32,251 nucleotides of DNA from Gemmata sp. (lineage in GTDB: Bacteria; Planctomycetota; Planctomycetia; Gemmatales; Gemmataceae). Location of the stretch: NCBI GenBank assembly GCA_022843445.1, contig JALHNS010000030.1, positions 1 to 32,251 of the forward strand. Direction: 5' to 3'. A program made the translations under genes and the position numbers. Positions 1,387 to 13,998 of this stretch are shown here, one piece after another. Numbering within the stretch: position 1 is the first letter of the stretch; every line of letters begins with the position of its first letter. Below the pieces are notes generated by a model. It made no database searches. It worked only from the letters and a program-made list of their open reading frames with translations, and was not told where the DNA came from.

Positions 1387-1427
1387 GAAAACCCCTCCAG
1401 TGAACGCGCGTTCGCGCCACTAATTAG

Positions 1428-1456
1428 ATAGTATACTTTCGTTCAAAAATTGTCAA
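1428..1456 (-). promoter_or_regulatory. near-consensus sigma-70 promoter
   Basis: The minus strand reads TTGACA (1456-1451), a perfect -35 box. It is followed after 17 nt by TACTAT (1433-1428) or after 15 nt by TATACT (1435-1430). It points left, toward the 66-residue gene about 400 nt away. Such a match is striking in DNA this GC-rich. Confidence 0.55.
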
Positions 1457-1494
1457 CGGTCGAGCGGCGCGAATCGCGGAGCGCCGCCCGCGGT

Positions 1495-2217
1495 TCAGCG
1501 CCCGAACCGCTGCCACAGTTCGTGGTTGACGATGTTGCCGTCGACCGGGCAAAAGAGCGCCTTCAGAGTGGGTTCGTCGGCGTCCTCGCGCGCGACGGTT
1601 ACGGAGCCGTCCCACAGCAGCACGAAGAACCCGCCCTTGAATTGGCCGGCGAACTTGGCGCGCAGCGCGCCGGGCGCGAACTCCTTCGGCACTTCCACGT
1701 CCGCGGGCTTCGTCCACGGCACCGCTTCGGCGGCTTCCACCACCGCGGCGGTGTTCGAGGTGCCGTCCGTCATTTGAACGAACTTCCACCGCTGCCGGTG
1801 CCGCATCCCGCCGGGGCCGACCAGTTGCTGCCAGTAGGTGTGGCCCTCCGGCGCCTCCTTCGCCACGGACTTGAACTGTGTGGGCATCAGCGGGATGAGT
1901 TTCTTGTTGTGCTCGCTGTCCCACGGTTCGTCGTGCTTGAACTGCTTGTACAGAGCGGCGTGCTCGATGTGCGGCAAGATGGCGACGCGCCAACTCAACA
2001 GCGACTGCGTCGGCTCGGCGGGCGCGAGAGTGCCGTAGGTCGGCAAGTGCCCGTAGTTGTCGTGGTAGTTGTGCAGCGCCAGCCCGATTTGTTTCAGGTT
2101 GTTCGCGGTGATTCGGGCTTCGTCCGAGCGAAACGGGTCGAACAACCCGCCGGCACCGCCGCAACCGCCGACGGCGACCGCGAGCGCGACGGGCACGAGC
2201 AAAGCGATGTGGCGCAC
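1495..2217 (-). CDS. DUF1559-family lipoprotein
   Basis: A GTG start at 2217 is preceded by AGAGGA. The 240-residue product begins [19 protein letters not shown], a lipoprotein signal peptide with the lipobox Cys at residue 19. The DUF1559 (SBP_bac_10) core follows directly: [18 protein letters not shown], then [12 protein letters not shown], then [15 protein letters not shown]. Unlike the usual DUF1559 protein it lacks the N-terminal pseudopilin methylation motif and hydrophobic spine helix. The C-terminal H-X9-DG motif is degenerate: the His position reads Phe before [14 protein letters not shown]1559 proteins are greatly expanded in planctomycetes and their role is unknown. This member is probably membrane-anchored through lipid rather than assembled like a pilin. 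It stands alone with a 176-nt gap to the upstream sigma gene. Confidence 0.87.
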
Positions 2218-2393
2218 GGCGGGCGTCCTCTGGTGAAGTGGGTAGGGGGATTGTCGCCGCGCGCGGGCCGCGGTTCAAGCGCGGGAGTTGGGACGTGTGC
2301 GGCCGGACGTGAAGGGCGCGCGGGCCGCGCTCGGGTCGGTCGAGCGGGTCGAAGCGCGACCGGGTTTCGTTCTCGGCCCGGCCCGCCGCCCCG

Positions 2394-3914
2394 TTACTCT
2401 TCCTCGTCGGCGAACTCTTCGAGCCGCTCGGCGCGGTTCGGCTGGCGCAGTTTCAGCAGCCCGCGGGCCTCGATCTGGCGGATGCGCTCGCGGGTGATGC
2501 CGTACTGCCGGGCCACTTCGTCGAGCGTGCGGGGCGTGCCGTCTTTCAGTCCGTACCGCAGTTCGATCACCTCGCGCTCGCGCGGCGCGAGGCTCCGCAG
2601 CACCTCGGTGAGGCGCTCGCGCAGCAGGCTGAAGTCCGCGTCGTCGCCGGGGCTGACCGCGTGCGCGTCGCTCAGGAACTCCTCGAGGGCGCGCTCGCCG
2701 TCGCCGCCGACGGCGTCGTTCAGGCTCACCGGGGCGCGGCCCACCACGCGCAGGCTGCGCACGTCTTCCACCTTCACGTCGAGCGCGTCCGCGAGTTCCT
2801 CGTTGGTCGGCTCGCGGCCGGTGGCGGCGGTCAGTTCGCCGCGCAGCTTTTCGGCCTTCGCCATCAGGCTGATCTGGTGGCACGGCACGCGCACGGTGCG
2901 GGCGTTGTCGTGCAGCGCGCGCGTGATGCCCTGCCGCACCCACCACGTCGCGTAGGTGCCGAACTTGAACTCCAGCCGCCACTCGTACTTGTCGACCGCC
3001 CGCATGAGGCCGCGGTTGCCCTCTTGAATGAGGTCGCCGAACGGCAGCCCGCGGTTGCGGTAGTTCTTGGCGATGCTCACCACGAGGCGCAGGTTGGCTT
3101 CGGCCAGTTCCTTGCGCACGGCTTGGTACGCGGCGCGGCGCTTGCGCAGCACGCGCACCAGTGCCGCGAGTTCGTCGGCGGTCATGCGGGCCTTGCACTC
3201 GGCGGCGCGGAGCGCCTTTTCGTGCTTGGCCTTGTCCGCGGGGCCGGTCGCGGCGGCGAACGCGATGCTCAGGTGCCTCAGTTCGTCGGCGAGGTCGTTC
3301 AGTTCGTCGGTCCAGCGCTCCAGCAGTTCGGTGCGGGGCGACAGTTCCGCGGCGAGCTTGCGGCACTTCGCGAGCCGGGTGAAGCGGTCCCGCTGCCACG
3401 TGCGGTGCCCGCCGCGGAACTCGTCGCGCGCGCCCTGCGCGAACACGTCGGCGTCTTGGTCGAGCAGCGAGCGGAGCGTGGGCAGGTCCGGGCCGAGCCG
3501 CGCCAGAATTTGTGCGCGCGACAGCCGCAGGGCGGCCGACGAGTACGCGTCGATGTGCGGATCGACCGGCGCGCCGCCGGCGGCGATCTGCTCGAACTTC
3601 TCCAAAACGCGCGCGAGCACGCGGGGGCACAGCAGCGCGGCTTGCCGGAACCGGTCGCGGCGGTGTTCGAGTTTCCGCGCCAGCGCGATTTCCTTGTCCC
3701 GCGACAGCAGCGGGATGGCCCCCATCTGCCGCAGGTACAGGCCCAGCGCGTCGTCCGCGCCGCCGGAGTGCTCGGCGTGCTCGGCCGGTTCGAGGAGCGT
3801 GTCGTCCTCGTCGTCCTCGTCCTCGTCCAGATCGGCCGATTCGGTGTCGAGGTCTTCGCGCTCGTCGCGCTCGTCTTCCGGGCGGCGATTCGTGTTGTCG
3901 GGCATTCGGTTCAT
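2394..3914 (-). CDS. RpoD/SigA-like RNA polymerase sigma-70 factor
   Basis: A 506-residue protein from ATG at 3914 ([11 protein letters not shown]). The frame is open 27 codons further upstream, but those residues look like non-coding leader. An acidic N-terminal tract ([11 protein letters not shown]) replaces a classical region 1.1. Region 1.2 follows ([15 protein letters not shown]), then about 190 residues of non-conserved Arg/Ala-rich helix. Region 2 has [36 protein letters not shown] and [19 protein letters not shown], nearly identical to primary sigma factors. Region 3 contains [11 protein letters not shown]. Region 4 ends with [20 protein letters not shown] and the RpoD-like tail [14 protein letters not shown]. 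It directs RNA polymerase to -10/-35 promoters. Whether it is the housekeeping factor or one of several paralogues cannot be told from this window. GGGAG lies about 13 nt before the ATG. Confidence 0.93.
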
Positions 3915-11015: not shown

Positions 11016-13925
11016 ATGCCGCTCCGCTTCGTCGCACTCGTACTCCCCTTCGCCCTCGTCAGTGTGCCCGCGCCAACCGGTGCCGCCGACGCGAAGGCGC
11101 ACTGGGCGTTCGTCGCCCCGGTGCGCCCCGCGGTTCCGAAGACCGCGTACCCGACGCGCAATCCGATCGACAATTTCGTCCGCGGGCGGTTGGAGCGCGA
11201 GAAGCTCGCGCCGAGCGCGGAAGCGGACCGCGTCACGCTGTGCCGCCGGCTCTACCTCGACCTCATCGGCCTGCCGCCGTCGCCGAAGGAAGTAGACGAA
11301 TTCGTTTCGGATAAGCGCGAGAACGCTTACGAACTGCTGGTGGAGAAGTTGCTCGCCAGTCCGCACTACGGCGAGAAGTGGGCGCGCTGGTGGCTGGACG
11401 CGGCGCGCTACGCGGACAGCGACGGCTACGAAAAAGACAAGGCACGCAACGTGTGGGCGTACCGCGAGTACGTCATCGGCGCGCTCAACCGCGACCTGCC
11501 GTTCAACCAGTTCGTCATCGAGCAACTCGCGGGCGACCAGCTTCCCAACGCCACGCAAGAGCAGATCGTCGCCACCGGGTTCTTGCGGATGTCGATGCTG
11601 AACGAAGAGGGCGGCGTCGATCCCGAACAGTTCCGCATGGACGCGATGTTCGACCGCATGGACGCCCTCGGCAAAGCGTTCCTCGGGCTGAGCGTCGCGT
11701 GCGTGCAGTGCCACGACCACAAGTTCGACCCGTTCTCGCAGGAAGAGTATTACCAACTGTTCGCGTTCCTCAACAACGACCACGAAGCCGAGCGCGTCGT
11801 GTACACGTCGAAGGAACTTGTGAAAGTCAACGCGCTCCGTTCGCGCATGACCGAACTCGACGCGAAGTTGAAAGAGGTACACGCGGATTGGGCAAAGCGG
11901 CTCGCGAAGTGGGAAGCGAGCGTGCCGAAGGAACCGAAGTGGCTCGCGCTCGCGGCGGAGAACGCGGGCGACAACGGGCAGCGGTACATTCCGCAGAAGG
12001 ACGGTTCCATTCTCGCGCAGGGCTACGCGCCCACGAAGTTCAGCACGACGCTCCGCGCGCCGGCACCCGCGAAGACCGTGAAAGCGTTCCGGCTGGAGTT
12101 GCTGAACGACCCGAACCTGCCGTGCAACGGGCCGGGCCGCTCGTTCATGGGCACCTGCGCGCTCACCGAATTCGGTGTCGAAGTGGAAGCGAACGGGAAA
12201 CGCGAGAAGGTGAAGATCGCCAAGGCGCACGCCGACTACGCCAACCCGGAGCGCTTGCTCGAAGACAACTTCTTCGACAAGACCGACCGCCGCCGCGTGA
12301 CCGGGCCGGTCGAGTTCGCCATCGACGGCAAGGACGAAACCGCGTGGGGCATCGACGCCGGCCCCGGTCGGCGAAACGTGCCGCGGGTCGCGGTGTTCGT
12401 GCCGGAGAAGCCGCTGGAACTCGGCGCGGGGGCGGTGCTGCACTTCAACCTGAAGCAGAACCACGGCGGTTGGAACAGCGACGACAACATGAACAACAAC
12501 CTCGGCCGCTTCCGGTTGAGCGCGACCGCGGACGCGCCGCCGGCCGAACTGCTCCCGCCCTTGGTGCGCACCTCGCTCGCGGTTCCCGCCGAGAAGCGGT
12601 CGCCGGCGCAAGCGCAAACCGTGTTCGCGCACTGGCGCGGCACCGTGAAAGACTTCGCCGAAACGCACGACGCCATCGAAAAGCTGTGGGCCGAGTGGCC
12701 GGTGGGTTCCACGAGCCTCGTCGCCGAGAAGCGCGATGACCCGCGCGACACGCGCCTGCTGAAGCGGGGCGACTTCCTGCGCCCCGGGGCGAAGGTGGAA
12801 GCCGACGTGCCCGCGGTGCTGCACCAACTGCCGAAGGGCGCGGACGGTTCGCGGCTCACGCTGGCAAAGTGGATCGTGGACAAGAAATCGCCGACCACGG
12901 CGCGCGCGATCGTGAATCGCGTGTGGCAGTCGTACTTCGGGGTCGGGCTGGTCGGCACGCCGGAAGAGTTCGGCACGCAGGGCGAAAAGCCCACGCATCC
13001 CGAGTTGCTCGATTGGCTCGCGGTCGAGTTCATGGAACCTACCCCCCCGGCCCCCCTCCCTGAAGGGAAGGGGGAGAGACCGCTCGCTGCGCTCGCGGGC
13101 GAAAACCGTGCGCCGTCTTCTTCTGTCTCCCCCCTTCCCTTCAGGGAGGGGGGGCAGGGGGGGGTAGGTGATTGGTCCCTCAAGCACGTTCACCGGCTCA
13201 TCGTGACCAGCGCCACCTATCGCCAAGCGTCCAAAGTGACGCCGGCGCTGTTGGAGCGCGACCCGGAGAACAAGTTGCTCGCTCGCGGGGCGCGGTTCCG
13301 CGCGGAGGGCGAAGTGGTGCGCGACATCGCGCTCACCGCGAGCGGGTTGCTAAACCGCAAGGTGGGTGGCCCGAGCGTGTTCGCGCCGGCCCCGGAGTTC
13401 CTCTTCAAGCCGCCCGCGAGCTACGGCCCGTTCGAGTGGGACGAGGCCAAAGGCGAAGATCGCTACCGCCGGGCGCTGTACACGTTCCGCCGTCGCAGCA
13501 CGCCGTACCCGGCGCTCACGGTGTTCGACGTCCCGATAGGCGAAGCGAGTTGCGTGAAGCGCACGCGCACGAACACGCCGCTTCAGGCGCTCACCGCGCT
13601 GAACGAAACCGTGTTCGTGGAGTGCGCTCGCGGGCTGGCGAAGCGCGCCATTCTCGAAGGCGGGAAGACCGACACCGAGCGCCTGGCGTACGCCTTCCGC
13701 CTCTGCGTTTCGCGCGAACCCGCGGCGGACGAACTGGAAGTGCTGGCGAAGCTGCTCTCCAAGAACCGCAAGCGGTTCGAGGAGGGCGAAGCGAACCCGT
13801 CGGAAATCGCCACCGGCGAGAAGGACAGCCCGAAGCCGGACGGCTTCACGCACGCGGACTGGGCCGCGTTCACGCTGCTCGCGCGAGTGCTGCTGAACTT
13901 GGATGAGACGCTGACGAAGGAATAA
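11016..13925 (+). CDS. DUF1549 (PSCyt2) / DUF1553 (PSD1) secreted protein with an internal palindromic insertion
   Basis: The start ATG at 11016 gives 969 residues with a signal peptide ending PAPTGAADA. The DUF1549 domain covers about residues 50-255 and contains DLIGLPPSPKEVDEF, WARWWLDAARYADSDGYEKD and the conserved CVQCHDHKFDP near 229-239. A middle region of beta-sandwich type covers 340-560. PSD1 spans about 605-955 with LAKWIVDKKSPTTARAIVNRVWQ, HPELLDWLAVEF, LIVTSATYRQ and TNTPLQALTALNE. No N-terminal PSC haem domain is present. Residues about 675-718 (PTPPAPLPEGKGE to PFREGGQGGVGD) come from a palindromic DNA element and are foreign to the family. These proteins are typical of planctomycetes, are usually paired with a DUF1501 protein (here at 16821) and have no proven function. 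Confidence 0.92.
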   Translation: MPLRFVALVLPFALVSVPAPTGAADAKAHWAFVAPVRPAVPKTAYPTRNPIDNFVRGRLEREKLAPSAEADRVTLCRRLYLDLIGLPPSPKEVDEFVSDKRENAYELLVEKLLASPHYGEKWARWWLDAARYADSDGYEKDKARNVWAYREYVIGALNRDLPFNQFVIEQLAGDQLPNATQEQIVATGFLRMSMLNEEGGVDPEQFRMDAMFDRMDALGKAFLGLSVACVQCHDHKFDPFSQEEYYQLFAFLNNDHEAERVVYTSKELVKVNALRSRMTELDAKLKEVHADWAKRLAKWEASVPKEPKWLALAAENAGDNGQRYIPQKDGSILAQGYAPTKFSTTLRAPAPAKTVKAFRLELLNDPNLPCNGPGRSFMGTCALTEFGVEVEANGKREKVKIAKAHADYANPERLLEDNFFDKTDRRRVTGPVEFAIDGKDETAWGIDAGPGRRNVPRVAVFVPEKPLELGAGAVLHFNLKQNHGGWNSDDNMNNNLGRFRLSATADAPPAELLPPLVRTSLAVPAEKRSPAQAQTVFAHWRGTVKDFAETHDAIEKLWAEWPVGSTSLVAEKRDDPRDTRLLKRGDFLRPGAKVEADVPAVLHQLPKGADGSRLTLAKWIVDKKSPTTARAIVNRVWQSYFGVGLVGTPEEFGTQGEKPTHPELLDWLAVEFMEPTPPAPLPEGKGERPLAALAGENRAPSSSVSPLPFREGGQGGVGDWSLKHVHRLIVTSATYRQASKVTPALLERDPENKLLARGARFRAEGEVVRDIALTASGLLNRKVGGPSVFAPAPEFLFKPPASYGPFEWDEAKGEDRYRRALYTFRRRSTPYPALTVFDVPIGEASCVKRTRTNTPLQALTALNETVFVECARGLAKRAILEGGKTDTERLAYAFRLCVSREPAADELEVLAKLLSKNRKRFEEGEANPSEIATGEKDSPKPDGFTHADWAAFTLLARVLLNLDETLTKE
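13038..13168. repeat. palindromic element inserted in frame within the PSD1 coding region
   Basis: Arms 13038-13080 and 13125-13168 are near-perfect inverted copies of about 43 nt; they differ only by a few changes in the C/G runs. The interior is 44 nt and begins with a minor palindrome (CGCTCGCTGCGCTCGCG). The core of the arm is CTCCCTGAAGGGAAGGGGG. Translation continues through the element as a Pro/Gly-rich stretch between EFME and DWSLKHVHRL, which are adjoining blocks in ordinary PSD1 proteins. Confidence 0.8.
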
Positions 13926-13932
13926 GTGCGCT

Positions 13933-13998
13933 GTCGAACCGCCGGCGTAAGCCGGTGGGTACGACGACAACCCGCCGGCTTACGCCCGGCGGTTCGAC
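13933..13998. repeat. long hairpin (planctomycete-type GCCGGCGTAAGCCGG repeat)
   Basis: Arms 13933-13960 and 13970-13998 pair over 28 positions with one mismatch and one bulge around a 9-nt loop. Each arm carries a second palindrome, GCCGGCGTAAGCCGG or its mirror. It starts 7 nt after the PSD1 stop and ends 26 nt before the DUF1080 start. In an operon it could dampen transcription or protect the 3' end of the upstream message; it may equally be a dispersed repeat. Confidence 0.65.

Follow-up and report, generated by a model that had tools for sequence, protein, structure and literature searches.

We analysed a 32,251-nucleotide stretch of a Gemmata genome (GenBank assembly GCA_022843445.1, contig JALHNS010000030.1; hereafter the window), in which a gene of the PSCyt2/PSD1 type (DUF1549/DUF1553) carries a palindromic element that is open in the frame of its host. 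The gene is listed as a single read-through open reading frame (ORF) at 11016..13925 on the forward strand, with an ATG at 11016 and a stop codon at 13923-13925, and apart from the element it is an open PSCyt2/PSD1 frame. Both Pfam domains are recovered (PSCyt2, E 2.4e-86; PSD1, E 6.9e-89), and the PSD1 profile match is split into two stretches.

A palindromic element inside a PSCyt2/PSD1 gene

The element, whose boundaries were set from the family alignment and the sequence, lies on the forward strand at 13037..13169, has the form ACCT...AGGT and is 133 bp long, i.e. 3k+1. It begins ACCTACCCCCCCGGCCCCCCTCCCTGAAGGGAAGGGGGAG and ends GGGGTAGGT. The left arm (13037..13079, forward strand; outer end ACCTACCCCCC) is itself a hairpin formed by CTCCCTGAAGGGAAGGGGG; it is followed by an interior (13080..13126) that is variable in an alignment of 20 copies, and by a right arm (13127..13169, ending in the same GGGGTAGGT) that is an inverted copy of the left. 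The arms pair over 33 nt with 94% complementarity (13042-13074 with 13130-13162), and an outer pair covers 20 nt at 85%. Both arms contain an exact copy of the core CTCCCTGAAGGGAAGGGGG, at 13056-13074 on the forward and 13130-13148 on the reverse strand. When a 16-base piece of this core is searched in the window with up to 3 mismatches, 4 matches are found against 0.38 expected, and all are within the two arms. Folding of the insert region gives -109.3 kcal/mol (z -9.1), while an Rfam scan of the window at gathering thresholds returns no match.

An initial annotation of this DNA had described inverted arms in the middle of the gene, with a read-through that adds about 44 Pro/Gly-rich residues. 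Both points are confirmed: the frame stays open across the 133 bp, and the codons at 13038..13169 (forward strand) translate into exactly 44 residues, PTPPAPLPEGKGE...SPLPFREGGQGGVG, reading PTPPAPLP...GGQGGVG. A second palindrome (GAACCGCCGGCGTAAGCCGG...CCGGCTTACGCCCGGCGGTTCG) is found at window positions 13935-13998, directly behind the PSD1 gene.

Copies, reading frame and phase across two genomes

Further copies of the arms, as expected if the element is a repeat, are abundant. Specifically, the genome of the window (G000; 7.39 Mb, with the window as contig C30) holds 110 matches to CTCCCTGAAGGGAAGGGGG at up to 3 mismatches, compared with 1 for a reversed control, which excludes chance as the source of this recurrence. 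A second genome of the same genus (G007; one contig, 10.1 Mb) holds 125 matches, compared with 0 for the control. Allowing no more than 1 mismatch, 16 of the 95 genomes of the family have the core, and 13 of these 16 belong to the 19 genomes of the genus; across the class, the counts are 13 of 297 for genomes and 3 of 154 for genera. From these matches we retrieved 63 sites in G000 (from 101 of the 110, leaving out 3-mismatch matches on C9 and C69) and 61 sites in G007 (from 100 of the 125 core places).

An alignment of 20 copies (15 from G000, 5 from G007) reveals near-invariant arms around a variable interior. The arms come in two forms, distinguished by three C/G runs that each vary by about one base; because the total difference is three bases, the frame is kept between them. 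Measured two-arm copies are 124-163 bp long, with one nested copy of 190 bp; the family is palindromic, roughly 100-160 bp in size and present in many copies. G007 also has compound arrays (L126, L132, L145, L146, L148, and L168) in which the family stands beside or around palindromes of the types CCTAACCCCCTAACCCCCTTCCC... and CCCCTCCCCAACCCCTCCCC..., some of which lie within reading frames.

The position of the copies relative to genes was assessed in G000 with a hexamer coding model trained on ORFs of the retrieved stretches, which was used to score the frames of the flanks. A total of 19 of the 63 sites are at contig ends, and the other 44 have both flanks readable. Among the latter, 29 lie within one gene: the two flanks agree in strand and frame, and no stop codon interrupts the read-through. 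Another 12 are not placed in one gene, because one flank has a noncoding score or the flanks are on opposite strands. The in-frame share of genic copies, 29 of 32 against an expected one-third, is highly significant (P = 2e-11). By eye, 28 of the 29 in-frame copies share one phase (P-T/P-P-P ... G-G-V/G-G), with L030 deviating at its left end. An ORF-based test of the same 63 sites finds a spanning ORF that is coding on both sides in 24 of 41 assessable cases; 22 of these are among the 29 in-frame sites and 2 are new (L036 and L045).

For G007, the model was retrained on that genome and applied to whole ORFs because neighboring palindromes depress flank scores, and 36 of 61 sites are in ORFs that are coding on both sides. 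An earlier classification of these sites, made with the model trained on G000, had put 11 in frame, 0 out of frame and 50 in a group with a noncoding-scoring flank, and is replaced by this one. One of the 25 remaining sites, L160, is nevertheless inside a MoeA gene that the coding test missed; this copy lies in an ORF at 1400-3124 on the reverse strand, in open frame between two MoeA Pfam domains.

Element length also follows the coding context: 36 of 38 genic two-arm copies are 1 mod 3 in length, compared with 9 of 15 non-genic copies (Fisher P = 0.004). Sites at contig ends are not part of the test, nor are nine sites whose ends were unclear and one containing an N run. The two genic exceptions are errors of end detection, i.e. 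the window element, which is really 133 bp, and L122, which begins AATCTACC and was cut short. The frame is kept at nearly all the genic sites examined, as the initial annotation had proposed for the window copy.

We also considered that the hairpin might be removed or skipped after transcription, in the manner of an intron, an intein or ribosome bypassing, leaving a protein without the peptide. A hairpin of about -109 kcal/mol in the mRNA sense is very stable and would suit such a process, but the genic copies are in frame and open (29 of 32) and their lengths keep to 3k+1. Because frame and stops matter, we regard bypass or splicing as extremely unlikely.

The host genes are conserved and unrelated to one another, and the in-frame copies in them make up the 29 of 44 sites in G000 and the 36 of 61 in G007. 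Besides the window gene, 25 of the 28 in-frame G000 proteins have a Pfam match. These include GlpK, MutL, CheA, PheT, KdtA, RecD2, Lnt, a NifS-like protein, RNase R, and MutM, as well as a PSD1 paralogue, QueG, SelB, a PNKP-ligase, PutA, and an M16 peptidase; names are taken from Pfam matches, and for GlpK and NifS also from comparison with solved structures. In the PSD1 paralogue (L059; G000:C256, about 1750-1849), a single arm is found at the same point as in the window gene.

When compared with solved structures, the inserts fill gaps in six proteins: MutM (48 residues vs 8 in 1l1t), RNase R (64 vs 9 in 8cdu), GlpK (45 vs 6 in 4e1j), NifS (47 vs 15 in 4isy), PutA (about 36 vs 5 in 5ur2), and an aldehyde dehydrogenase (ALDH; 72 vs 44 in 3b4w). 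Absence from homologues is seen in these six comparisons and, among orthologues, for PSD1, RNase R, and MutM.

Orthologous loops and their turnover in the genus

The initial annotation had proposed checking whether the inserted residues are missing elsewhere, and most PSD1 homologues indeed lack the 44 residues. The window gene and 77 segments from named contigs make up an alignment of 78 homologous segments, in which the loop has 4 residues in 54, more than 25 in 6, and 47 in the window gene. Within the genus, a close PSD1 orthologue is present in 14 genomes and the loop is readable in 12. Differing palindromic inserts occupy it in G000, G001, G016, G006, and G018 (z -5.7 to -9.1), with weaker inserts in G009 (37 residues, z -2.8) and G003 (14 residues, z about -3), and unstructured loops of 13-19 residues in G010, G012, G007 (15 residues), and G005. 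G002 has a short, ancestral-like loop of 4 residues. Outside these genomes, a PSD1 protein of a Planctomycetaceae bacterium from Baikal (L293; SIAF01000055.1) has at this site a Pro/Gly-rich loop of 64 residues that is different again in type.

RNase R and MutM show similar variation. RNase R is found in 19 genomes and readable in 14, with z of -4 or lower in 7 (G000, G002, G003, G005, G006, G007, and G013); the family of the window element is present in both G000 and G002, and the G006 insert is a hybrid with the arms of two families. In G009, the RNase R (L187/L198) has a frameshift with stops inside the palindrome, either an assembly error in C/G runs or a real mutation. MutM is readable in 19 of 19 genomes, with z of -6.5 or lower in G000, G010, G013, G018, and G002, and a loop of 6-16 residues in 13 others. 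Orthologues with the same Pro/Gly loop but no palindrome in the DNA would have spoken against an insertion of the kind first annotated; they are not found as such, since most long inserts in relatives are palindromic, the exceptions being MutM of G006 (z +0.5) and PSD1 of G009. Upstream of the RNase R of G000, residues 12-76 of the translation of L053:4774-7293 form a stretch with counterparts elsewhere in G000 and in G003, G007, G010, G012, and G018, and this stretch may represent a further family of repeats.

At some sites, occupancy persists while the palindrome itself changes, which could mean that the hairpin or peptide is useful to the host gene and is kept for that reason, beyond mere tolerance. 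However, a long insert is missing from some orthologues within the genus (PSD1 of G002, MutM of 13 of the 19 genomes), and the sequence, length, and family of the inserts vary. We consider such domestication improbable.

Comparison of G000 and G007 reveals shared targets. With inserts masked, 15 of the 36 G007 target proteins are orthologous to 15 of the 31 G000 targets, and by eye the element is in the same loop; a sixteenth match, to a PKS paralogue, was excluded. About 0.2 shared targets are expected by chance, assuming about 6,500 genes. One of the shared cases is a single-arm copy at the same place in both genomes (L057/L141).

Turnover is visible among closer relatives of G007, which has 92-95% DNA identity with G009 and 88-89% with G012 in the genes compared. 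We traced 18 G007 sites in both, and 16 were found in G012 (15 genic by the ORF test). Each of the 16 G012 sites differs in length from its G007 counterpart by a multiple of three (range 0 to 249 bp; P = 2e-8). The core of the window family, searched with up to 3 mismatches, is missing at 10 of these 16 sites, present once at 5 and twice at 1, and several of the sites that lack it have other palindromes, as judged from alignments and z values. At the G012 site orthologous to L129 there is a GCCGGCTCACGCCGGC palindrome like the one behind the PSD1 gene of the window. L127 carries the element in G007 and lacks it in G009 and G012, where the site is 162 bp (54 codons) shorter.

These comparisons bear on an alternative in which palindromes entered the loops once, before the radiation of the genus, and their arms were later homogenized or switched by gene conversion without recent insertion. 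The 15 common target genes, including the single-arm pair at one place, fit vertical inheritance, and the hybrid RNase R of G006 fits gene conversion. By contrast, the presence of L127 in G007 and its absence from G009 and G012 do not, nor does the PSD1 loop, which is 15 unstructured residues in G007 and a 37-residue insert with a weak palindrome in G009 despite about 93% DNA identity there. The 10 G012 sites without the core and the short ancestral-like PSD1 loop of G002 also argue against it, and we see vertical inheritance as a possible but doubtful account of the whole pattern. The initial annotation had not foreseen that in sister species these loops are occupied by other palindromes, or that 15 target genes are common to two species. 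The results support widening it to a recurrent, frame-keeping colonization of shared loops by several families of palindromes.

Means of spread and known systems

The elements have terminal inverted repeats, as in a miniature inverted-repeat transposable element (MITE) of a DDE transposon. Left flanks often end in TTTC, GGCA or TTCG and right flanks often begin with GAAA, TGCC or CGAA, apparently independently of each other. No neighboring inward-facing pair of arms 0.6-5 kb apart, as a composite or autonomous element would have, is found among 100 of the 125 G007 core places, a search that covered elements sharing more than their outermost bases. Two wider inward pairs in G007, at spacings of 2.7 and 3.6 kb, consist of the outer arms of two complete elements; the intervening sequence has three ORFs, one matching MoeA, one TsaD and one without a Pfam match.

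A plasmid or viral vehicle was rejected, as the plasmids searched for the element give no match and the viral stretches fail to explain the spread. In viral contigs, a 21-base sequence is matched exactly in one stretch, and a longer degenerate pattern is matched in 5. In one viral contig (L415, IMGVR_UViG_3300026549_000006), a similarly built single arm at 3312-3332 lies close to the C-terminal end of an ORF and is read as ...EEPTPDPSLKGRG...; that ORF has no PHROG match.

Spread of the elements as repetitive extragenic palindromic sequences (REPs) by a REP-associated tyrosine transposase (RAYT, with a Y1 domain) is not supported either. The elements are palindromic, exist in many copies and have a GTAG at the outer end of the right arm; this GTAG lies 3' of the hairpin on its strand, whereas its usual position in REPs is 5'. 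The distribution of Y1_Tnp genes does not follow that of the elements. No Y1_Tnp match is present in G007 despite its 125 cores, G005 and G008 combine 11 and 7 matches with no cores at up to 1 mismatch, and none of 30 retrieved Y1 loci (of 37 matches listed) holds the core of the window family. Many copies are also within genes, not mainly extragenic. REPs inside ORFs are on record in several species, as are REP families in Planctomycetes and different REPs at about the same site in recB of two Xanthomonas species, according to PMC3733652. Altogether, we judge a RAYT origin very unlikely.

The explanation we favor, and hold to be quite probable, is that the window element is one copy of a dispersed, non-autonomous, translatable palindromic element of Gemmata that keeps the frame and colonizes tolerant loops, which other palindromes reuse. 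New sites would be reached in trans, by a transposition-like insertion served by a presumed enzyme and by recombination between similar arms of different palindromes. Intergenic copies would persist and others be lost, with genic copies retained almost exclusively in proteins that accept a loop at that point and in the phase that runs open across both arms; the total inserted length would stay a multiple of three. The ribosome would read through, the product being a Pro/Gly-rich, probably disordered and perhaps nearly neutral loop, and selection may favor loops where it is tolerated. A loop that holds one palindrome would become a lasting landing site in which others insert, nest or replace it, leaving orthologous loops of sister species with different palindromes and an intact frame. 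Because the same loops are reused, an accepted palindrome may itself serve as target or recombination partner, a notion that nested and hybrid elements support. Of this account, the data show the dispersal, the kept frame and phase, the lack of the insert in most homologues, the reuse of sites and the turnover among close relatives, whereas translation of the insert, near-neutrality and the insertion process with its enzyme are inferred. We further lean towards the view that Gemmata has "landing loops", i.e. shared, defined sites in dozens of conserved proteins that unrelated palindromic selfish DNAs recolonize with the frame intact, the first palindrome opening, within an important gene, a safe haven that later ones prefer.

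Several observations weigh against this explanation. Three of the 44 G000 sites are out of frame (same-strand coding flanks in different frames), although one of them, L074, has an N run. In windows 140-500 nt away from the elements, same-frame and other-frame pairs number 19 and 4 in G000 and 32 and 9 in G007, i.e. an out-of-frame background of 4 of 23 and 9 of 41 same-strand pairs; at random positions, where gene boundaries produce such cases, the counts are 93 and 44 in G000 and 22 and 5 in G007; out-of-frame cases at elements are similar in frequency to those at random positions, or less frequent. Between G007 and G009, only 4 of 18 length differences are multiples of three (3 of 11 without N runs); G009 is a gapped draft assembly with the RNase R frameshift described above, and for this breach of the rule of three we propose assembly error in C/G runs as the likely cause. 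The sites shared by G000 and G007 could partly be old, inherited insertions, and the long MutM insert of G006, which lacks a fold signal, indicates that not every long insert is palindromic. Finally, the scans run found no transposase, no autonomous copy and no simple target duplication; by eye, the ends in the flank table have no direct repeat, and there is no clean empty site at high identity. Support for the word "mobile" in the initial annotation comes from dispersal and from L127, present in one and absent from two closely related genomes; these scans give neither an enzyme nor a target duplication.

Protein-coding palindromes have been described as peculiar to Rickettsia and later to Wolbachia, according to titles cited in PMC10969869 and PMC2229807. 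If they are present in force in a large-genomed planctomycete, they would be a broader route by which selfish DNA enters proteins. Among the titles and abstract openings listed by searches of the open literature, we found no description of coding palindromes in planctomycetes, PMC3733652 aside. The reuse of loops provides a natural, replicated map of the loops in MutM, RNase R, PSD1, and other proteins that tolerate about 30-60 extra residues, and it makes the movement of such elements testable in cultivable bacteria. It is also a warning for annotation, as the insert peptides in many Gemmata proteins are not domain sequence.

The Gemmata element resembles bacterial MITEs (NEMIS/Correia, ERIC, and others) in being small and non-autonomous with inverted ends, and MITEs are sometimes fused in frame to genes, according to PMC2229807. 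Unlike for MITEs, the scans run revealed neither a target duplication nor an autonomous parent. With GTAG/CGTC REPs and REP dimers (bacterial interspersed mosaic elements, BIMEs, and REP doublets forming hairpins, REPINs), it shares hairpin units in inverted pairs and, for some REPs, a position inside ORFs; however, Gemmata copies are often genic, whereas REPs are mostly intergenic, and no RAYT link is found in Gemmata.

The closest likeness is in kind to Rickettsia palindromic elements (RPEs), as the initial annotation had suggested: both are palindromic, exist in many copies, sit in frame and are absent from orthologues. According to PMC10969869 and PMC2229807, RPEs are 105-150 bp long, form several families and lie in frame in conserved Rickettsia genes, and one RPE-bearing enzyme, guanylate kinase, is translated and active with a changed substrate affinity. 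Likewise, the Gemmata elements are palindromes of ~105-150 bp, of several families, in frame in unrelated conserved genes, and for both a target duplication is not established in these sources and scans. The Gemmata elements probably work as RPEs do, the two being likened by descriptions of their kind, not by sequence. They differ in their host, a planctomycete with a 7-10 Mb genome, and in number, with 31 and 36 Gemmata genes carrying one arm family compared with the 19 reading frames that PMC2229807 cites from the first report on RPEs. They also differ from RPEs in that orthologous Gemmata loops hold different palindromes, along with nested and hybrid elements, and the proposed shared landing loops would be the newest part of the finding.

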